The notes under the pieces were generated by a model. That model saw only the letters and a program-made list of their open reading frames with translations. It ran no database searches and was not told where the DNA came from. A program made the position numbers and the translations under genes. A stretch of DNA of 64,000 bases from Rhodopirellula bahusiensis. Lineage in GTDB: Bacteria; Planctomycetota; Planctomycetia; Pirellulales; Pirellulaceae. Of this stretch, positions 15,360-26,275 are shown in pieces; within the stretch, counting starts at the first letter, position 1, and the number at the start of each line of letters is the position of its first letter. The stretch covers positions 124,001 through 188,000 of the forward strand of contig NZ_NIZW01000015.1 of NCBI RefSeq assembly GCF_002727185.1. The letters are read 5' to 3'.

Positions 15360-15944
15360 CAAGGTCTCCTCGACACCCGAAACAACATCAACACGGTTGG
15401 GTGAATGAGACCAAGCACCGGCGGTGCCAGTCGCCTGCTGAGGCAACGCATAAATCATAGCAAACCGTTGTCGCATAAAGGTTTAGACGGACGAACCGCC
15501 TACGGGGTGGATAAGCTTGCGACGTGGCATGTGGGTTCCAGACATCACCAATGTTGCGTTCCCGCAACGCTCGATGAAAAACCACCACACGCCTCAACTT
15601 CGTGACTATTGGATGCACGACGTTCCCCCGCCTCGCATACAAAAACGTAGGTCACGTCTGAGTGATGTCACACAAGATTCGGAATTCGTTGTCATCATTT
15701 TGGCCCGATGGATGGAACAACCAAGCCGGTCCGTGGGGACTACACTCCACCCGACCAGCTACAGCAAACCTTCCATGAGCTGCATCGGTGAATCAGGGTG
15801 CCCCACCGTCCGCTACAACGATCCCCACCCACCGTTTAAACTCGCTCGTCGCGTCAAAGCAAATTGCTTGGTCGCGCAAGCGGTCCATACAATTGGACGC
15901 ACCTCGACGATGCGAAGTTCCGTGGAGCCCTCGAATGCGACTGG
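15360..15944. other. long divergent intergenic region
   Basis: About 585 bases separate the start of the sigma factor gene from the GlnE-like gene on the other strand. Open frames here look non-coding. It must hold promoters for both genes, but I could not assign convincing -35/-10 pairs by eye, and saw no riboswitch or tRNA. Confidence 0.5.
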
Positions 15945-18900
15945 ATGAATTGGATGAGTGACTGGGCCGACTACGCGCCGCTGAGCCCCGAGGATGTCGC
16001 CGATCCCTCTCGTGTCGCCAAATCATTGGCTGCGATCGCCGGCAGCGGGGTTTCAGATGACCTGTTGCAGTTGCTGTGGTCCAGTTTGGTGGAGCACCTG
16101 CATCTGACCGACGATCCCGACGAATCGATCGATCGATTGAGTCAGTTCATCGGCGTCTCTCGTAGCCCGATGGCTCTGCTCGCGTTGTTCGAACGTGATC
16201 CAATGATGCTGCCAGCGTTGCTGCAGGTCCTCAGCACCAGCCCGGCGATCGCGAAACTGCTGATCAACGACCCGGAAAGTTTCGATCTGATCCGAGCCAG
16301 TGATGGCTCCCCAGCCCAACGATCGGTCTTGGTCGACGAGCTGTCCGGCGAGATGAAAACGATCCAATCGAATCGCCGTGCTGCGTTCGCCATCCGAAGA
16401 TTCGCGAGTCGAGAAATCTTGCGGATCGCGTACGGCGAATTTGTTCGGGGACTTCCGCCGGACAAGGTTCAATCTCAGATCAGCTTTGTCACCGATGCGA
16501 TCATGGAAGCGGCCCTGGCTTTTGCCACTTCTTCCATTTCCGCCAAACGATCCATCCCTCAACGCATCGACGGAAGCCAGCCTCAGTTTTCGATCATCGC
16601 ACTTGGCAACTACGGCGGTCAAGAAATCGGCTACGAATCGCAGTTGGACCTGTTGCTGCTGTGTGACCAAATCGACCGCAAAAACGCCAGTCACATTGAA
16701 TTTCATCGGCAAGTGGCTCGAAGTCTGGTCGAATTGCTGCAATCCAATGGCAGCCAAGTGATCCCCTTCACCCTGCGTTTCGACCATCAACCGACACAGA
16801 ACGAAATGACGTTGTCGGACACGCAACGCTTGGGCGTTCAATCGTCTCGTCTTCAGTCATCACTGGGACGACAAACGTCTGACAATTCGAGCACGGTCAG
16901 TTCAGGAGCGGACGTTGATTTCTTTGGCATCAACGAAGCCGCGACGCACTACGAACGTAATGGTCGCACTTGGCAACGGTTGGCATTTGTAAAAGCGCGT
17001 CACGCCGCGGGAAAAGAATCTCTGTCCCAGTCGTTTCTAAAACGCATCGAACCGTGGGTCTATCACCATTTGTTGACCCGCAGCGAAATCGCGGACATTC
17101 GTGTGCTGCGTCGAAAGTTGGAAAAGCGAGCCGTCGCGACTTCTTCCACCAACGGCACTCCTATCGCCGATGTGCCGGGAGGTCGCCGCGACATTGAACT
17201 CACAATCCAGTTCTTGCAATTGCTGCACGGAGGTGACCTGCCCGACGTTCGTGTCACCGGAACGCTGCCCGCGATCTCTGAACTGTCACGCCACGGTTGC
17301 CTGACGTCTCAAGAAGCCACGATCCTGTCGACCAACCACGCGAAACTTTGTCGACTGGAACATTTGTTGGCGGTGTTGTTTGATCACCGAATCTCACACT
17401 TGCCCGAAGAACGCGATGTGCGTTCCCGTCTCGCTTGGCGATTGGGAGTCCGCACGGAATCCGAGAGCGGCAAAGCGATTCATATCCAAGGCGACGCGGA
17501 TCGATTCGAGAAGATGCTGCAGGAAACGTTTGATGTGAATCGCAAGATCATCAATCACTTGATGGTCGATGAAGTCCCGCCGAGCGAGACTTCAGAAGCC
17601 AGCGAAAGCTCTGGTTCCGCCGCCAATAATGAAGCTGGATCGCTGCACGATTTAGCCGTCATCACTGAACTGATTCTGGATCCTACTCCAGACATGGACG
17701 TGTTCCAACAAACGGTTGCTCAGTATCGATTCGACAATGTGCCGCAAGCCATTTCAAACGTGCTCGCGCTCAGCCAAGAAACCGTTTCGTTTCTTTCGCC
17801 TCGCCGGTGCCGTCACTTCTTCGCCGCCGTCGCCCCGCGCGTCTTGCAAGAGATCGCAGCTTCGCCCGATCCCGATTCGACGCTCGCGCGATTGGTCGCG
17901 ATGACGGACTCGATTGGTGCCAAAGCCACTCTTTGGGAACTGCTTCGAACCAACGATGCAACGTTAAAGCTGACCATTTCGATGTGTTCGCTGGCGCCGT
18001 ATCTGACGAACATCTTGATTGATCATCCGGGAATGATCGACGAGCTGATCGATTCACTGGTGATGGATCGCCTTCCAACAACTGAACGACTGGACGCCCA
18101 AACCATTCGGCTGTGCGATGGAGTCGATGAGATTGTCGATGTCCTGCGTCACGTCAAAGCGAGTGCTCATCTGATGATCGGCGTTCGCGATTTGCTGGGC
18201 AAAGAATCGATTGACTCAATCAGTCGTTCGCTGACCGATATCGCTGAAGCCTGCTTGCGACGAGTGATCGACCAGGAACACGAACTTCTCGCTCAGCGAT
18301 ACGGCGATCCCCTCGATAAAAATGGCGAGCGATCAGAATTGGTCGCGGTGGCGTTGGGGCGTTTCGCGGGCGGCGAAATGAACTACCACAGCGATCTGGA
18401 CCTGACGTTTGTGTACACGGCTGAAGGCGAGACCAAACGCCGAGTCGGTGGCCCTCGATCGACGCTTTCCAATCGCCAATTCTTCAATCAACTCGCGGGC
18501 AATATCCTTCGTCGAATGGACCAATCCATCGAAGGTCGTTTGTACGAGATGGACTTGCCCTTCGCCGGTGGTGCGGATGAGTCCGTGTTGGCGATGTCAC
18601 GAGACCAATTCATCAAACCGTTTCGTCAACGAACCGCTTCGCTTTGGCAGTCCGTCACCTTGTGCAAAGCGAGGCCTATCTCCGGCTCTCGCGAAGCTCG
18701 CGAATCAATCGAACAGATGCTTCGCAGCGTGACCCGCGGTGTCAGCTGGCGAGACAGCATGAACGGCGATCTTCGCGATTGGCGAGAGAACAGTGAATCG
18801 ACAGCCGGCCCCAACAATTTGAAACGCGGTGCTGGTGGGTTGGTGGACATCGAGCTGATCGCCGCCGTTGGTGTTCTGCGTATGGCGAGCGATGACGACT

Positions 18901-19208
18901 TTCCACTGCACGCCAACACGGTCAAATGCCTGGAAGAACTTTCGCGTGCCGATTGTTATTCCAACGACGATGTGGAAACGTTGGCTCGCAACTACCGAAC
19001 GCTACGAAGCATCGAAGGCAAACTCCGCTTGCTCAACACGGTCGCTCGGCATGAACTGCCACTTGGGTTTGATGACGAAGAAGCGCCGCTGGAACTGAAG
19101 CAACTGGCGAGTCTAGCGGGAGCCGAATCGCCCGGTGAACTGTTGAGCCAATGTGAAATCGTCCGCCAGGAAAACCGCGAATTGTTGAATCGGCTGGTCC
19201 CGAAGTGA
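15945..19208 (+). CDS. glnE: GlnE-like glutamine synthetase adenylyltransferase, N-terminal site altered
   Basis: About 1087 residues from ATG 15945 (MNWMSDWADYAPLSP); 15954 is an equally possible start. The architecture is two nucleotidyltransferase domains, as in GlnE, which adenylylates and deadenylylates glutamine synthetase. The C-terminal domain has ALGRFAGGEMNYHSDLDL with an intact SDLD metal-binding pair near residues 816-819. In the N-terminal domain the matching block is ALGNYGGQEIGYESQLDL: the first aspartate is replaced by glutamine (Q233), which would be expected to impair the deadenylylating site. GGRRDIELTIQFLQL and GGLVDIELIAAV complete both domains. The overall length is slightly above the E. 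coli protein. Family assignment is confident; loss of one activity is inference. Confidence 0.85.
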   Translation: MNWMSDWADYAPLSPEDVADPSRVAKSLAAIAGSGVSDDLLQLLWSSLVEHLHLTDDPDESIDRLSQFIGVSRSPMALLALFERDPMMLPALLQVLSTSPAIAKLLINDPESFDLIRASDGSPAQRSVLVDELSGEMKTIQSNRRAAFAIRRFASREILRIAYGEFVRGLPPDKVQSQISFVTDAIMEAALAFATSSISAKRSIPQRIDGSQPQFSIIALGNYGGQEIGYESQLDLLLLCDQIDRKNASHIEFHRQVARSLVELLQSNGSQVIPFTLRFDHQPTQNEMTLSDTQRLGVQSSRLQSSLGRQTSDNSSTVSSGADVDFFGINEAATHYERNGRTWQRLAFVKARHAAGKESLSQSFLKRIEPWVYHHLLTRSEIADIRVLRRKLEKRAVATSSTNGTPIADVPGGRRDIELTIQFLQLLHGGDLPDVRVTGTLPAISELSRHGCLTSQEATILSTNHAKLCRLEHLLAVLFDHRISHLPEERDVRSRLAWRLGVRTESESGKAIHIQGDADRFEKMLQETFDVNRKIINHLMVDEVPPSETSEASESSGSAANNEAGSLHDLAVITELILDPTPDMDVFQQTVAQYRFDNVPQAISNVLALSQETVSFLSPRRCRHFFAAVAPRVLQEIAASPDPDSTLARLVAMTDSIGAKATLWELLRTNDATLKLTISMCSLAPYLTNILIDHPGMIDELIDSLVMDRLPTTERLDAQTIRLCDGVDEIVDVLRHVKASAHLMIGVRDLLGKESIDSISRSLTDIAEACLRRVIDQEHELLAQRYGDPLDKNGERSELVAVALGRFAGGEMNYHSDLDLTFVYTAEGETKRRVGGPRSTLSNRQFFNQLAGNILRRMDQSIEGRLYEMDLPFAGGADESVLAMSRDQFIKPFRQRTASLWQSVTLCKARPISGSREARESIEQMLRSVTRGVSWRDSMNGDLRDWRENSESTAGPNNLKRGAGGLVDIELIAAVGVLRMASDDDFPLHANTVKCLEELSRADCYSNDDVETLARNYRTLRSIEGKLRLLNTVARHELPLGFDDEEAPLELKQLASLAGAESPGELLSQCEIVRQENRELLNRLVPK

Positions 19209-19243: not shown

Positions 19244-22132
19244 CTAAAGTGTGGCCTCGATCCACTCGCGCCAATCTTGCCACTGCATTTCATCCATGTC
19301 GGAATTTGGCAATGAAGGCAGCATCACGGTGCGTCCCAAATCGGGACGTTCCAAGTGAACTGAAAGCAGTCCGTTGATGTCGAGTTCAAAGCCGAGACGC
19401 CGCATGGGATTCACCTCGTCCGGCGCCACTTCGATGATGTGACGACCTAGCGTTTGCCAATTCTCGCCATTCTTGCCCGAGGATTCCACCAACGACAACG
19501 TCATTCGATTGTCGCGTGCCGTTCCGTTGAGTTGTCGGTTCGTGCGCGCCGGTGTGGGAGTGCCACGCGGGATGATTGGCAAAATTCGTCGCTTGCCATC
19601 ACGGTCAGCGACAACAAATCCAACCGAGTGTCCAGCAACGCTTTTCGCAGGCGGTTCCGAACACAACTGGCCGGGCAACTCAGACGCCACGCACGCGGCG
19701 GCACCGTGGGCCGCGTCGACTTGATCATAAAAGGTGATCGCGGCGTTGGGTGCGCCCTTCGTCAACACACGGTCGCGAATCGCGGGAAGTCTCAGCAACG
19801 GCCCCATGGCCAAACACTGCTTCAAGTCAGATGGCAACACACCTGCGCGTTGACAAACCAATTGAATGCTTTCCTCGATTGAACACAACAAGTCTTCGCA
19901 CTCGGTCAGCCACTCGTCTCGGGTCAGCTCCACGGTATCGACGTGGTTTTGATGAGCGATCTCGACCCGAGTTTCAGGCATCAGCAACAATTGGTTCATT
20001 GCTCGTTCGCCCGCCATCTGAATGCGGGTGACATGAATCAATTCTTGGCGATTCGTGGCCAAGCCTTGGATGCGTTTGGGGGCACTCGGCAATCGTGACG
20101 AAATCATCTCGACCAAACGTCGAGACCACGCCATCGTGCTGTGGCACCAATGCCCCGCAGTCGCAATCTGTCGAATTTGCCCGCCGTAGACTTGCAGGAT
20201 GGAGATATCCAACGACTGCCCCGTCAGGCCGACGTACAAAATCGGCGCCGATGACTGTGAATCAATGGGTGGCTGGCGATCTTCGGCGTGGCTTCCTCGA
20301 TGCGGAGTCGTCATCGCGAATCGTGTCACCGCAATGCTTCGTTCAATCAGACGTACCGCGGGCAACCCTGCCAATTGTGCGGACTGATGAATCGCGCGGC
20401 GATGCAGTTGGTCGTAGCTCGACGGCACCGTGATCGCGACCGCATCGGGCCAACGAGCATGTCGTTTCCAGTTGGTTCCCAATGCCATTGGTGATGAAGA
20501 GTCACCATCGAGCGAACCTGGAGAATCCAATTGAGTCAGTGTGTTGCCAAGCAAATGCCGCAAGCACAATCCCATCGTGACTTCCGGCGGGCACATTCGT
20601 CCGTCGATCCGCCGCATCATGTCATCGCGGCCGAAGTACATCATTTGGCAGTGCGCCACCCGTTGCGGATGGCGTTCACGACGCTCGTAGGCATTGTGAC
20701 CAAACAAGATTGTCGACTGTCCCGTGTCACGATCCGTTTTTTCAGCAACGGCGATTCGGCACAATGGACGAGGCCCTTGCGAGGTCATCCCCGGCCATCC
20801 GGCCAGCATTGTGCCATCGGACTGAGTGATCGCGGTCGCCGCGTGAGTCATCCCAAGTTCAATGCCAATGACACTGAGCAATCCACGACGGGTCGATTCG
20901 CCGCCCACGGTTGTGTGGTCTTCGCCAGTTTCTCGCCGAGCAAAATCCAATACCCAAGCCGGGGTCGAACGGTCGTTGTCGTATGGAGCCATCGCGCGTG
21001 CGACTTCGTCCATCGATCCATAACGTTCCGCCGGATCCTTGGCCAACATCCTTCGCACGATGTCCGCGAGTTTCAGGTCGACGTCATTTCGAAGTGTCAT
21101 CAAATCCGGGACTTCCCCGTGCCGATGACCGTAAACCTGTTCGACCAAATCACCGGTGAACGGGGGATGCCCCATCAACAGATAGAACAACGTCGCCCCA
21201 AGCGAATACTGGTCGCTTCGCGAATCGGCTGAATTCGCGTCCTCGAGTTGTTCGGGTGAGATGAACGACAAAGTCCCGAGCAAAGGTCGATTCTTTGCAT
21301 CGGTCGAGGCGGAGTTGTGCGAACTGTGATCCTCGGTCAGGTCCTTCTCCTGCGGCTTCAAATCACGAGGCGACGGATACCATTCGGCGGAAAAACGAGC
21401 CAAACCAAGATCCAACAACTTGATCGTTCCATCATGGGCTCGCATCAGGTTGCCAGGTTTGACATCGCGGTGAACGATGCCCGCCGCGTGTGCGTGGTGC
21501 AACGCAAAGGCAGCCTGGCGAATCGCCGACGCAGCGTCACCGATCGACATCGGTCCTTGGTCGTTCACCCATTGCGACAGCGTTCGCCCATCGACGTACT
21601 CCATCGCCATGTAGTGAATGCCATCCGCTTCGCCCGCATCAAACGCGGTGACGATGTTCGGGTGCATCAAACTCGAGGCCGCTCGGACCTCTTCGTAGAA
21701 TCGGTTGACCGACTCGACACGATCAAGCCAACGGGTCGGCAGTATCTTGAGCGCAACGACTCGCCCCATCGATCGGTGCTCCGCCAGGAACACCTCGCCC
21801 ATGCCTCCTCGTCCGATCGGGCGACCGACTTTGTAGACGCCTACAATTTCAGGGATGGACCGATGAAACTTCTCGACTTCAAATCCGACTTCCGAATGCG
21901 TTTGGTCGCGAGTCAACTCGCCCATCGAATCCGCGTGAGAAGCATCCAACAAATCAGCCCACGAACTGCCATCGCCACTTCCGGACTCGCTGGAGTTCTC
22001 GGCGCGACGTTGCATAGCCTTGCTGGCGGAATCGCCGAACAGTTCCGGTTCGTCAGAAGAATTGGACAATGGCGGACGAAGAATGAGGAATGGCGAGCGT
22101 ACCAGGGCACAACCGAGTCTCTTCCTGACCAA
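19244..22132 (-). CDS. Ser/Thr protein kinase fused to an Hsp70-like region
   Basis: 962 residues from ATG 22132; ATGs further in (22015) are alternatives because the first 40 residues are not conserved-looking. Residues 98-385 are a Hanks-type kinase: glycine loop GRGGMGEV (107-114), lysine K129 in VALKI, HRDVKPGN (221-228), DLG in place of DFG (241-243), and SPE (292-294). Residues about 420-935 follow the order of Hsp70: VIGIELGMTHAATAI (422-436), VAITVPSSYDQLHRRA (565-580), YVGLTGQSLDISIL (633-646), LTRDEWLTECEDLL and a beta substrate-binding-like part ending GFELDINGLLSVHL. The Hsp70 phosphate-binding and glycine motifs are altered, so ATPase activity is doubtful. No transmembrane segment is seen. 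The gene is convergent with the GlnE-like gene and divergent from hemC. Confidence 0.88.
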   Translation of the reverse strand: MVRKRLGCALVRSPFLILRPPLSNSSDEPELFGDSASKAMQRRAENSSESGSGDGSSWADLLDASHADSMGELTRDQTHSEVGFEVEKFHRSIPEIVGVYKVGRPIGRGGMGEVFLAEHRSMGRVVALKILPTRWLDRVESVNRFYEEVRAASSLMHPNIVTAFDAGEADGIHYMAMEYVDGRTLSQWVNDQGPMSIGDAASAIRQAAFALHHAHAAGIVHRDVKPGNLMRAHDGTIKLLDLGLARFSAEWYPSPRDLKPQEKDLTEDHSSHNSASTDAKNRPLLGTLSFISPEQLEDANSADSRSDQYSLGATLFYLLMGHPPFTGDLVEQVYGHRHGEVPDLMTLRNDVDLKLADIVRRMLAKDPAERYGSMDEVARAMAPYDNDRSTPAWVLDFARRETGEDHTTVGGESTRRGLLSVIGIELGMTHAATAITQSDGTMLAGWPGMTSQGPRPLCRIAVAEKTDRDTGQSTILFGHNAYERRERHPQRVAHCQMMYFGRDDMMRRIDGRMCPPEVTMGLCLRHLLGNTLTQLDSPGSLDGDSSSPMALGTNWKRHARWPDAVAITVPSSYDQLHRRAIHQSAQLAGLPAVRLIERSIAVTRFAMTTPHRGSHAEDRQPPIDSQSSAPILYVGLTGQSLDISILQVYGGQIRQIATAGHWCHSTMAWSRRLVEMISSRLPSAPKRIQGLATNRQELIHVTRIQMAGERAMNQLLLMPETRVEIAHQNHVDTVELTRDEWLTECEDLLCSIEESIQLVCQRAGVLPSDLKQCLAMGPLLRLPAIRDRVLTKGAPNAAITFYDQVDAAHGAAACVASELPGQLCSEPPAKSVAGHSVGFVVADRDGKRRILPIIPRGTPTPARTNRQLNGTARDNRMTLSLVESSGKNGENWQTLGRHIIEVAPDEVNPMRRLGFELDINGLLSVHLERPDLGRTVMLPSLPNSDMDEMQWQDWREWIEATL

Positions 22133-22269
22133 GTCGCACTCGGTTCCGGAATTGGCACCCTCGGCCTACACTCTTCCTACTAGCGTAACGACGCAGCGGA
22201 AGAATTTCCGCCATGATTTTTGCAATTTCGGCCGTTCCGTCCACCCTTCCCACCGAATAAACCGCAACC

Positions 22270-23283
22270 GTGGCCTCGACTCCCCCCTCCGACACCCCCC
22301 GCCTCCGAATCGCCACCCGAGAAAGCCCGTTGGCCATGTGGCAGGCCGAACACGTTGCTGAATCATTGAAAAAACGTGGTTTCCAGACCGAAATCGTGCC
22401 GTTGGTCAGCAAAGGCGACACCGACATGCGCCCCATCGACGGCACTCGCCAAGTCGGTTTGTTCACCAAACGCATCCAGCAGGCGTTGGTTGATGACGAA
22501 GCGGATGTGGCGGTCCACTCCCTCAAAGATTTGCCAACTGAACCGGACAGTCGATTCACCTTGGCCGCGGTTCCCCCACGTGAATCGGTCTTGGACGCCC
22601 TCGTCTTCGCCGACGACAGTCCTCATTTGAAGGAGCAGGCGGACGCGGCCTCGCCACTGGACTGCTTGCCGCAAGGAGCACGTGTTGGAACGGGCAGCAC
22701 CCGCCGGTTGGCTCAACTGAAACAGCTTCGTCCGGACCTCGATGTCCTGCCCATCCGCGGCAACGTGCAGACTCGCTTGGCCAAACTTAACGCTGGCGAA
22801 TTCGATGCAATTGTCTTGGCCCACGCCGGAATCTTGCGTTTGGAAATGAACGACCTGCCTCACCGATTGTTCCCGCTCGAAGAGATGATTCCCGCTCCCG
22901 GCCAAGGTGCCTTGGGAATCGAAGTTCGAAGCGATGACACCAACGCGATGCACGCTATCTCAAGTTTGAACGACGCGGCGGCACGGTTGGCGGCGACGGC
23001 GGAGCGAAAGGTTTTGTCGGAACTTCACGGCGGATGCTTGGCTCCGATCGCTTGTCATGCCAAATTGGAAACGTCTGACACGGGCACCGAACTGTGCCTC
23101 AACGCGATCGTGATGTCAGCCGATGGCAAAGAACGATTGCAAGAATCCGCTCGCATCGCTGTCACACCGGACGACAACGACTTGGAAGTCGCCACCGCAC
23201 ATGAATTGGGAACAAGCGTTGCCAACCGATTGCGAGAACAAGGTGCGGACAAACTGATCAGCACCGTTCGTGACGCACACTGA
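22270..23283 (+). CDS. hemC: porphobilinogen deaminase (hydroxymethylbilane synthase)
   Basis: 337 residues starting at GTG 22270. The enzyme joins four porphobilinogen molecules into hydroxymethylbilane in haem synthesis. Visible blocks are [14 protein letters not shown] near the start, VHSLKDLPT with the catalytic D87, GTGSTRR (141-146), [21 protein letters not shown] and LHGGCLAPI, where C256 carries the dipyrromethane cofactor. The protein has an eight-residue N-terminal extension and a slightly longer insert after residue 115. hemL follows 65 bases downstream, so the pair forms a haem unit. The start is GTG; no ATG lies ahead of the first conserved block. Confidence 0.95.
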
Positions 23284-23348: not shown

Positions 23349-24668
23349 ATGAACTCACCCGCGAACTCTTCTGCCGCTCTGCCCACCGCTGGTCCAAAGA
23401 GTGTTGCCGCTTTCGAACGTGCGTCCAAGTTGATGCCCGGCGGTGTCAACTCACCGGCCAGAGCGTTTGGTGCCGTTGGTGGCACACCGCTGTTCATCGA
23501 ACGAGCCGAAGGTCCGTATTTGTTCGACATCGATGGCAACCGCTACATCGATTACATCGGATCATGGGGACCGATGATCCTGGGCCACGCTCACCCGGAG
23601 GTCATTGCCGCAATCACCGCCGCCGCGGCCAAGGGAACCAGCTACGGAGCGCCGACCGAAGCGGAATCGCAACTCGCTGAGCAAATCATCGAAGCTGTTC
23701 CGAGCATCGAGAAAGTCCGCTTGGTCAACAGCGGCACGGAAGCAACCATGAGCGCGCTCCGCGTGGCTCGTGGAGCAACCGGACGAAAGAAGGTCATTAA
23801 ATTCGCGGGCAACTACCACGGTCATGTGGACTCACTGCTCGTCGCTGCCGGAAGCGCCGCCGCGACACTGGGTGCTCCCGATTCCCCGGGTGTCACACCC
23901 GGTGCAGCCGAAGACACGCTGGTGCTTTCTTACAACGATGTGCCTGGTTTGCAGAGCGCGTTTGATCAACACGGCGATGACATCGCTGCTTTGATCCTCG
24001 AACCCGTCGTCGGAAACATGGGATGCGTCCTGCCGACCATGGACTTCCTGAACGCCGCTCGCGACCTGACTTCGAAACATGGATCGATCCTGATCTTTGA
24101 TGAAGTCATGACAGGTTTTCGTGTGGCATACGGTGGGGCTCAGGAGCGATTCGGTGTCACACCGGACATGACGACACTCGGCAAAATCGTCGGTGGAGGG
24201 ATGCCGCTGGGAGCCTACGGCGGACGTGCCGACATCATGAACCAAGTGCTTCCTGCGGGCAAAGTCTTTCAAGCCGGAACGCTGAGCGGCAACCCCGTCG
24301 CGGTGGCGGCCGGTTCAGCAACGCTTCGTTTGTTGAAAGAGAACCCTCCCTACGAGCAACTGGAACGATTGGCAGATCGCTTAGCCGAAGGCTTGGATCG
24401 CGCGGCGACCTCAGCGGGCATGGCACACACTGTTGCCAAAGCCGGCGCGATGCTGACGCTGTTCTTCAATCCCGATGCGGTCCATTGCTGGGACGATGCA
24501 GATCGTTGTGACCGAGACGCCTTTGGACGCTACTTCTGGGGAATGATGAGCGAAGGCATCTACATGCCTTGCAGCCAGTTCGAAGCGTTGTTTTTCAGTC
24601 AACAACACACCGAAGCGATGATCGACGAAACAATCGCCGCGGCGGAAAAGGTCCTGAAGTCGCTTTAA
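23349..24668 (+). CDS. hemL: glutamate-1-semialdehyde 2,1-aminomutase
   Basis: 439 residues. The PLP enzyme converts glutamate-1-semialdehyde to 5-aminolevulinate in the C5 pathway. It has LMPGGVNSPARAF at residues 28-40, NSGTEATMSALRVAR, FAGNYHGHVDSLL, LIFDEVMTGFR with D251-E252, and TTLGKIVGGGMPLGAYGG, where K279 is the Schiff-base lysine. Length and order are normal. Presence of hemL indicates that 5-aminolevulinate is made from glutamyl-tRNA. The stop overlaps the 3' end of the convergent gene at 24665 by four bases. Confidence 0.96.
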   Translation: MNSPANSSAALPTAGPKSVAAFERASKLMPGGVNSPARAFGAVGGTPLFIERAEGPYLFDIDGNRYIDYIGSWGPMILGHAHPEVIAAITAAAAKGTSYGAPTEAESQLAEQIIEAVPSIEKVRLVNSGTEATMSALRVARGATGRKKVIKFAGNYHGHVDSLLVAAGSAAATLGAPDSPGVTPGAAEDTLVLSYNDVPGLQSAFDQHGDDIAALILEPVVGNMGCVLPTMDFLNAARDLTSKHGSILIFDEVMTGFRVAYGGAQERFGVTPDMTTLGKIVGGGMPLGAYGGRADIMNQVLPAGKVFQAGTLSGNPVAVAAGSATLRLLKENPPYEQLERLADRLAEGLDRAATSAGMAHTVAKAGAMLTLFFNPDAVHCWDDADRCDRDAFGRYFWGMMSEGIYMPCSQFEALFFSQQHTEAMIDETIAAAEKVLKSL

Positions 24669-25156
24669 GCTCCCGGGTCTTGCCCGTCTTGATAAGCACG
24701 CAGGCGATCGATCAATGAAAGCAGTCGATTCGCGGCCGTGGGCAGTGCGACTTCACCCAGTTCCGTGAGGGCGGCGGATGGGCCACGAGTCTTTTCGCAG
24801 ACTTGTTGAATCTCAATCGCGATTCGCCGCGCCAAGCGTTCTTTGTCCTGGCACAATCGCAATCGGGTTTTCCAGCGAGCCACGTTCTTGGCTTCTTCCG
24901 TGGCAGGAACTCGCTCGCCGGGCCGAACGGTGGAGCGTTTTCGACTGAGCTGATCCTGGGCCGCTGTCAGCTCTCGTTCGGCCAGTCGCGTTTGATCTCG
25001 CCAGTAGGTCACTTGATTGACCGAGAAGTGTTCATCAACGCGATTCAGTGTCGCGTGAATCGAATGGCTGGACAGACACAAGCGGTCCGCCAATCGCTCG
25101 ACTGCCTTGCGAAGGGCATCGAGCGAATCGAGATCTCTGACGTCGCTTTGGGTCAC
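24665..25156 (-). CDS. hypothetical helical protein coupled to a FlgM-like gene
   Basis: 163 residues, almost entirely charged helix with no signal or membrane segment. A likely coiled coil runs through the block RLAERELTAAQDQLSRKR (about residues 57-74) and again through RLARRIAIEIQQ. I do not recognise a domain. Its ATG overlaps the stop of the FlgM-like gene by ATGA, so both are made together. In other bacteria FlgM is often followed by the chaperone FlgN, a small helical protein, so a FlgN-like role is possible, but no FlgN motif is visible. The 3' end overlaps that of hemL by four bases. Confidence 0.6.
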   Translation of the reverse strand: MTQSDVRDLDSLDALRKAVERLADRLCLSSHSIHATLNRVDEHFSVNQVTYWRDQTRLAERELTAAQDQLSRKRSTVRPGERVPATEEAKNVARWKTRLRLCQDKERLARRIAIEIQQVCEKTRGPSAALTELGEVALPTAANRLLSLIDRLRAYQDGQDPGA

Positions 25157-25473
25157 GCCAGCTCATCGAGGAAGCGGTCGAGTGCCGCGTCCATCTTCTC
25201 CGGTGTGTCATAGCTTCCGTCGGCAATTTGGCGACGGATATCAGCAACGCGGTCGATTCGGATTTCACCACCACCAGCGATGGATGATGTGGAATCCAAA
25301 CGATTCGCGGATGTCGCGGCGCTGGACAGATCGAGTTGGTCCACCGGCGCGGCTGATGTCTTGGAAGTGGTTGCATCCGGCTTCAGACGGTTCGCACCAG
25401 CATTGGCAGCTGGCTTGGAAACCGACGAGGCGGCTTGGCTCGTGGAAAGTCGAAATGGACCGTAAATTTGCAT
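25153..25473 (-). CDS. flgM: FlgM-like anti-sigma-28 factor
   Basis: 106 residues from ATG 25473 (MQIYGPFRLSTSQAAS). Residues 20-70 are Ser/Ala/Thr-rich and probably disordered. The C-terminal end carries IRIDRVADIRRQIADGSYDT...MDAALDRFLDEL, the part of FlgM that binds the flagellar sigma factor FliA and is the only well conserved piece. Longer starts upstream to 25542 lack that style of N-terminus. The gene overlaps the next gene by four bases. No flagellar structural gene lies in this window, so the pair sits away from them. The assignment rests on the short C-terminal block, hence moderate certainty. Confidence 0.75.
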   Translation of the reverse strand: MQIYGPFRLSTSQAASSVSKPAANAGANRLKPDATTSKTSAAPVDQLDLSSAATSANRLDSTSSIAGGGEIRIDRVADIRRQIADGSYDTPEKMDAALDRFLDELA

Positions 25474-26275
25474 CTTGACGTGTGCTCCCGGGAGGAAAGC
25501 GGAATTGACAACCGCGTGACACGCCGGACCTTCGTGGCCCATATGGCATGTCGATCGATCGACAAAAGTTTGAAAAGGATTGTGGGTGCGACAACCGATC
25601 CGTCATGGGCCAGCGCCAAGGGGCGCATCCAGTCAGGGAACTCTCGACTCGGTTATCAGCGTTGCAATCCTTGTCCCAGGAATCAATCCGTCAGAATCGG
25701 TGGAGACTTCGCAAGCGCAGTTTCGAGAACACGTCTGATATCGGCCTAAAACGCGGCCGGCCTGCAGTCTCAATTGAATTCTGAGCGAAAGTTCTGGGCA
25801 AAATTCTGTTCCGTCACACTATCAATCGCGTGAAACCGCCGGCAAGGTCAACGCAGTCAAAAAAATCGGCTTTTACAAACGAATTGATTCAAGCCTCGTG
25901 GTTTGTCAGGATTGAATCTTGGAGTTGGTCAAACCGGAGGGCTCGCAACCAGCCGCTAAACTGGGCAGCGGAATGGCTGAGCCGTCCTGTGTCACCCAGG
26001 GATCTTTCACCGACAAACCATTCGCCAGTTGCCATCCGAGACACATTCCTCCAGCCCCAAAACAACCGCCGCATTCTCCCCCGACTAGTCGACAGTTCGG
26101 CGTGAAACCTTCGAGTTTCCCGCTCGGGCTCAAGTGGATTGATACCGACCCTCGGGGGACCAGCAGTTTGGCCCGGCTACCGGCTTGCCCGAAAGGTACT
26201 GGCAAGGGACGATGTTGGCCCACATCGTTCTTCATTCGCCATCCCCATCGCCAAAACGGCTTTTTCGGATCCCCG
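25474..26275. other. 802-base intergenic region
   Basis: A long gap between two divergently read genes, the FlgM-like gene and the GlmU-like gene. Frames on both strands are open for up to about 160 codons but look out of style, with Pro/Ser-rich or Gly/Trp-rich translations and no domain. I see no RNA gene or riboswitch. It presumably contains promoters, including one that could be sigma-28 dependent, but I could not locate it. Confidence 0.45.

Follow-up and report, generated by a model that had tools for sequence, protein, structure and literature searches.

The joining of a protein kinase and an Hsp70 region has been described before: Krupa and Srinivasan 2005 (PMC1262709) report a 'Kinase + HSP70' architecture for gi|32474490 of Pirellula sp. 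(Rhodopirellula baltica), and the row for Pirellula sp. in their kinase table reads '59 (1)'. The portions of that paper available to us only name the domain, in two sentences, and contain nothing on lost ATPase residues, a clade, intact relatives or a mechanism. We studied a gene with the same kinase-then-HSP70 order in a 64,000-nucleotide stretch of Rhodopirellula bahusiensis (contig NZ_NIZW01000015.1, positions 124,001 to 188,000), which we call the window and within which all positions are counted. The gene (19244..22132, minus strand) encodes 962 amino acids plus a stop codon from a TTG start, and combines a Hanks-type kinase and an Hsp70-fold module in one chain; automatic annotation names both halves. 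An earlier reading of the window made without database searches (the sequence-only reading) had not recognised this fusion from well-studied bacteria, a view overturned by the 2005 report. The architecture is thus already known, and the lost ATP site, the clade that shares it and the intact relatives are added here. A literature search, with most subscription journals outside its scope, returned nothing on a lost ATP site in the kinase-Hsp70 family.

The yeast ribosome-associated complex offers a second comparison. According to the portion of PMC7083937 available to us, its member Ssz1 is lidless, does not hydrolyse ATP and binds a peptide motif in the beta substrate-binding domain (SBD-beta). 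Like Ssz1, the window protein has no alpha-helical substrate-binding lid (SBD-alpha), retains SBD-beta and works tied to a partner; it probably also resembles Ssz1 in hydrolysing no ATP. Ssz1 retains ATP binding and has a J-protein as its partner (PMC7083937, same portion), whereas the window clade has its catalytic residues replaced by fixed others and has a kinase in the same chain as its partner. GTPase conflict systems (PMC7159879) include both HSP70 and protein kinases in the same broad class. However, the part of that source we could consult treats them as separate genes in different themes and describes no kinase-Hsp70 fusion. Stress-induced R. baltica kinases are given by RB number in the accessible part of PMC2754498, and none of these could be matched to the window gene.

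The kinase domain (residues 93-386; 20975..21856, minus strand, as for all parts of the gene) is PknB-like. Pkinase (PF00069) matches residues 100-374 in a profile search (E 4.3e-44; 151.3 bits against a cut-off of 31.7), and GRGGMGEV, K129, HRDVKPGN (HRD223, N228) and D241-L-G243 are all present, bearing out the complete N-terminal Hanks-type kinase of the sequence-only reading. Unlike in PknB and other PASTA-type kinases, an Hsp70 occupies the place of the PASTA repeats, and the NCBIfam PASTA-kinase equivalog NF033483 reaches 250.9 of the 450 bits required and so misses its threshold. The tail that precedes the kinase (residues 1-92; 21857..22132) is poorly conserved, with none of its 92 columns at 90% conservation and 58 too gappy for scoring, and it is modelled with low confidence (predicted local distance difference test, pLDDT, below 50 for residues 1-89). 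ATG codons at residues 40 (22015) and 70 (21925) are possible alternative starts, so the true start is uncertain.

A short linker (residues 387-418; 20879..20974) leads to an Hsp70 nucleotide-binding domain (NBD) fold with replaced ATP-site residues (residues 419-828; 19649..20878), followed by SBD-beta (residues 829-940; 19313..19648). The remaining 22 residues (941-962; 19247..19312) form a single helix (948-961), after which the protein ends, leaving no room for the SBD-alpha lid of DnaK. HSP70 (PF00012) matches residues 565-928 in a profile search (E 4.3e-17; 62 bits against a cut-off of 20.6), and the Hsp70 half alone matches solved DnaK structures (best E 2.9e-14). A structural model likewise predicts the Hsp70/actin-like NBD fold expected by the sequence-only reading at residues 420-830, and then SBD-beta. 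The resemblance to DnaK and PF00012 therefore extends to the fold of both domains, their order and the equivalents of P143 and R151. By contrast, K70, E171, D194 and T199 are replaced, the adenosine loop is changed and the lid is missing. The protein scores 51.1 of the 822.55 bits required by the DnaK equivalog TIGR02350, and falls short of the threshold for each of the DnaK and HscA models of NCBIfam among the matches listed.

We assigned equivalent residues by alignment with the window genome's own DnaK (locus L031), using what we take to be the position numbers of E. coli DnaK. M428 stands at T11, M497 (20642..20644) at the catalytic K70, G635 (20228..20230) at D194, where GLTGQS replaces DLGGGT, and S640 at T199. 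At the catalytic E171, R598 (20339..20341) reverses the charge. The altered loops of the sequence-only reading hold against L031: GIELGMT, VGLTGQSLD and GPLLRLP (residues 777-783; 19784..19804) in place of GIDLGTT, DLGGGTFD and the adenosine-loop GGSTRVP. The losses of the K70 and E171 equivalents go beyond these loop changes, and these two residues weigh more heavily than the loops. Bovine K71 and E175, presumably the equivalents of K70 and E171, are mutated in the solved structures 1kaz, 1kay and 1qqo, as their entry titles state. Three positions remain recognizable: E425 (20858..20860) at D8, P570 (20423..20425) at P143, which we take to be the proline switch, and R578 (20399..20401) at R151.

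To see how far this pattern extends, we used a search with the Hsp70 half in 241 genomes of the window's family, 125 of which had a match at E 1e-22 or better. From 100 newly drawn regions together with the loci of earlier searches, 139 full-length Hsp70 open reading frames (ORFs) were kept; five incomplete domains were excluded, including both parts of the split domain of locus L118. A kinase occurs in the same ORF in 113 cases, all of which have the HRDxKPxN and DxG motifs. The other 26 have none, although one of them (L069) starts at a contig edge and could have lost its kinase there. These kinase-less Hsp70s include three paralogues in the window genome and three proteins from other families of the order, and all 26 keep D8, T11, K70, E171, D194 and T199. 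Among the 113 fusions, all six residues are kept in four (L079, L083, L085 and L103), while 105 lack K70, E171 and D194. Another four, from one genus (L027, L089, L105 and L108), keep these three residues and have T199K, which may be another way of silencing the ATP site.

Position 171 in the 105 eroded fusions is arginine in 70 (R-type; 69 genomes, 12 genera) and lysine in 35 (K-type; 33 genomes, 3 genera). Because the query was an eroded R-type domain, K-type and intact fusions are under-sampled and these proportions are biased. The eroded form occurs in 102 genomes and 15 genera, which confirms the recurrence across Pirellulaceae that the sequence-only reading had raised; its overall interpretation stands as to fusion, motif loss, recurrence and fold, and fails as to the novelty of the fusion. 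Its idea of a stress or unfolded-protein sensor, with a non-hydrolysing Hsp70-like part that would bind client while the kinase signals, stays a hypothesis. All 13 examined genomes of the window's genus, its own included, carry the gene, and one relative (L010) is 93% identical to the window protein in the Hsp70 half. The R-type homologues examined in the protein database were 75 from a first search and a further 86 taken from the best 120 of 395 matches. Arginine is present at both 171 and 151 in 161 of these 161, and K70 and D194 in none, so the replacement pattern is beyond chance. The erosion is a fixed replacement, with the charge reversed at the catalytic glutamate, and the Hsp70 half of the window clade probably hydrolyses no ATP.

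Outside the window's family, a phylum-wide draw of 392 genomes (E 1e-24, three candidates scored per genome) matched only the window's own genome and one genome of the same family, which does not prove absence elsewhere. With an intact fusion as the query, four of 392 genomes matched at E 1e-150, and one more full-length fused match was found in a genome (G254) absent from the matches of the first search. At least four intact fusions are in the protein database, among the best 120 of 8000 matches: P0076 of Lignipirellula cremea, and P0077, P0079 and P0080. Like the window protein, they join a kinase and a lidless Hsp70 in one chain; unlike it, they have an intact ATP site. Five apparently free-standing eroded Hsp70s (P0027, P0041, P0205, P0208 and P0218) were rejected, because all begin inside the kinase C-lobe, which suggests that the gene calls were truncated or the contigs cut.

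Is the altered module simply a passenger in decay, without function? Its ATP-site motifs are lost, and the Hsp70 domain of one genome (G176, locus L118) is split over two overlapping ORFs by a frameshift or a sequencing error. However, the ratio of nonsynonymous to synonymous substitution rates (dN/dS) in 11 pairs is 0.017-0.075 for the Hsp70 half and 0-0.080 for the kinase. These ratios contradict decay, although the synonymous rate of the Hsp70 half is saturated (above 1) in seven of the pairs, so that only four give trustworthy values. The eroded module is thus under purifying selection. Given also the fixed replacements across 15 genera and in all 161 homologues, and no internal stop in any matched stretch among the matches listed, we regard decay as highly improbable. 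Conservation is 0.66 in SBD-beta, above the 0.57 of the NBD, and 0.72 in the kinase.

The ATP site of the module is systematically rebuilt, but selection preserves the domain in many relatives, and this suggests that evolution made a built-in sensor or docking arm out of a chaperone fold. In our preferred reading, the pseudo-Hsp70 is a lidless arm that works independently of ATP, binds a peptide or a partner and regulates the kinase, whose own catalytic residues are intact; we put its probability at roughly 0.5. The pseudo-Hsp70 would bind peptides, with SBD-beta occupied by a stretch of a partner or of an exposed protein, and would be coupled to the kinase. The relay between SBD and NBD, with the equivalents of P143 and R151, would transmit this occupancy, and the signal would pass through the short linker to alter kinase activity or bring the kinase to its substrate. 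In the cleft, R598 and the retained acidic E425 could form an internal pair, a salt bridge that would take the place of Mg-ATP.

Conservation of the putative relay could fit a domain that still moves or docks without burning ATP. The P143 equivalent is kept in 103 of the 105 eroded loci and the R151 equivalent in all 105; the R167 position has arginine in only 69 and the K155 position lysine in 30. The same pattern, namely an Hsp70 fold and R151 region kept while catalytic residues are lost, would also serve a docking adaptor that senses nothing. Such a module would mimic the surface of a true Hsp70 and draw in its co-factors (a J-protein, GrpE) or the clients of DnaK, and the chaperone machinery would become the target of the kinase. 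The R151 region of DnaK is, we believe, close to the J-domain/relay surface, and the window genome has three further Hsp70s with intact motifs (L031-L033). However, no co-chaperone is among the annotated neighbours, J-protein and GrpE genes not having been searched for. We consider this adaptor possible, at perhaps one chance in four.

It is unlikely that the cleft still accommodates a nucleotide or some other small ligand, in an altered geometry, and that the kinase reports its level. In favor of such a sensor, all 113 fused loci have an acidic residue at position 8, and the replaced R-type loops have their own consensus (GLTGQ, GPLLR). However, three catalytic charges are lost, and the changed adenosine loop is very variable (one of 21 columns at 90% for residues 770-790) and differs between R-type and K-type. 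Still less probable is a phosphorylation-driven chaperone switch, in which the fused kinase would have taken over the power stroke, driving the Hsp70 cycle by phosphorylation of the linker or Hsp70 module, with the cleft closed by an Arg/Lys-Asp/Glu pair. A conserved phosphosite in the linker was also considered; the pattern [ST]T.{1,2}GG[SE][ST] occurs in 32 of 70 R-type and none of 35 K-type linkers, and the idea was dropped because this is too patchy.

The linkers bear on a further possibility, that the Hsp70 part only folds its own kinase or holds it off until matured. They are 28-39 amino acids long in the R-type rows listed versus 54-73 in the four intact fusions, which would fit such a stabilizer, but those of the T199K fusions are 22-24. 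The predicted template modelling score (pTM) of 0.82 for the whole eroded fusion versus 0.64 for an intact one points the same way, but is confounded because only 10 of the 54 rows of alignment A3 come from kinase fusions. We find this explanation doubtful.

Several observations weigh against the regulatory arm that we prefer. Ligand binding and kinase regulation are both steps that we infer. The four intact fusions have all catalytic and phosphate-loop residues, which shows that a normal ATPase site is compatible with the attached kinase, and T199 is still present in three eroded loci. The peptide-cleft loops of DnaK align poorly even in standalone relatives, so the ligand of SBD-beta may be a specific one and not unfolded chains. 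Finally, the predicted pose gives no help: the model of the eroded fusion aligns best with domain-docked DnaK, but the intact control P0076 was modelled docked too (4b9q_D and 7ko2_D, root-mean-square deviation 1.9 for each). A lock in the docked, ATP-like state was thus rejected and the pose discarded as evidence.

The 105 eroded Hsp70s form one clade (Shimodaira-Hasegawa-like approximate likelihood ratio test, SH-aLRT, 100; 100/100 on a 61-row tree). The eroded state therefore marks one large clade, and some fusions elsewhere keep the ATP site. In the Hsp70 tree, the intact fusions lie among standalone proteins, with the Hsp70 half of Lignipirellula cremea (locus L079) nested among standalone Hsp70s, and the T199K fusions lie apart. 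A single clade of all fusions is rejected by the Hsp70 data (approximately unbiased test, p-AU 0.032, on a group chosen after the tree was seen, with 30 of the 105 eroded rows and without the three DnaK rows of the window genome). By contrast, in a tree with 46 of the 105 eroded kinases, the kinase domains of all the fusions included form one group (97/96), the window genome's kinase L006 lying unresolved beside them. Either a single fusion was followed by later kinase loss, or related kinases were joined repeatedly.

Kinases are a well-known source of pseudoenzymes. Here an Hsp70 has become a pseudo-ATPase that is fixed over many genera and linked to a kinase, and it lends itself to testing what the Hsp70 fold can do without ATP. 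Since intact, T199K and fully replaced fusions co-occur in one family, each stage of the conversion is open to parallel assay. Should the SBD still bind peptides, a single protein would connect protein state with phosphorylation signalling in planctomycetes, which have many kinases with inputs that are, to our knowledge, mostly unknown.

We now note properties of the surroundings. Downstream lies a convergent glnE-like gene (15864-19208), whose best NCBIfam score is below the cut-off. Upstream and divergent are hemC (hydroxymethylbilane synthase; 22270..23283, plus strand; TIGR00212 at 300.4 bits against a cut-off of 164) and, on the same side, hemL (23349-24668). A shared promoter may lie in the gap between the divergent pair (22132-22270). 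Of 34 R-type loci with at least 1 kb of upstream sequence, 22 have hemC as the divergent neighbour; among loci with as much sequence, it was not found in the 27 of K-type, the 19 without a kinase or the 6 that are intact or T199K. This adjacency may be mere conserved gene order within the clade. Other annotated neighbours are a sigma factor, aroC, one gene without a match and a FlgM-like gene (25153-25542, minus strand), whose small product resembles the FlgM anti-sigma factor below threshold (32 bits, the cut-off being 40.75).

Among the standalone lidless intact Hsp70s, 5 of 23 (L094, L095, L096, L107 and L109) are followed on the same strand by moeA (molybdopterin synthesis), at most 154 bases away or overlapping; no fusion is followed by moeA. 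Standalone lidless Hsp70s also occur as paired adjacent genes (L088, L028 and G605:C48:54030-57737). The window genome has a second ClpB-like gene (G000:C15:96803-99244) about 44 kb from the kinase, which is also present in both complete relatives searched.
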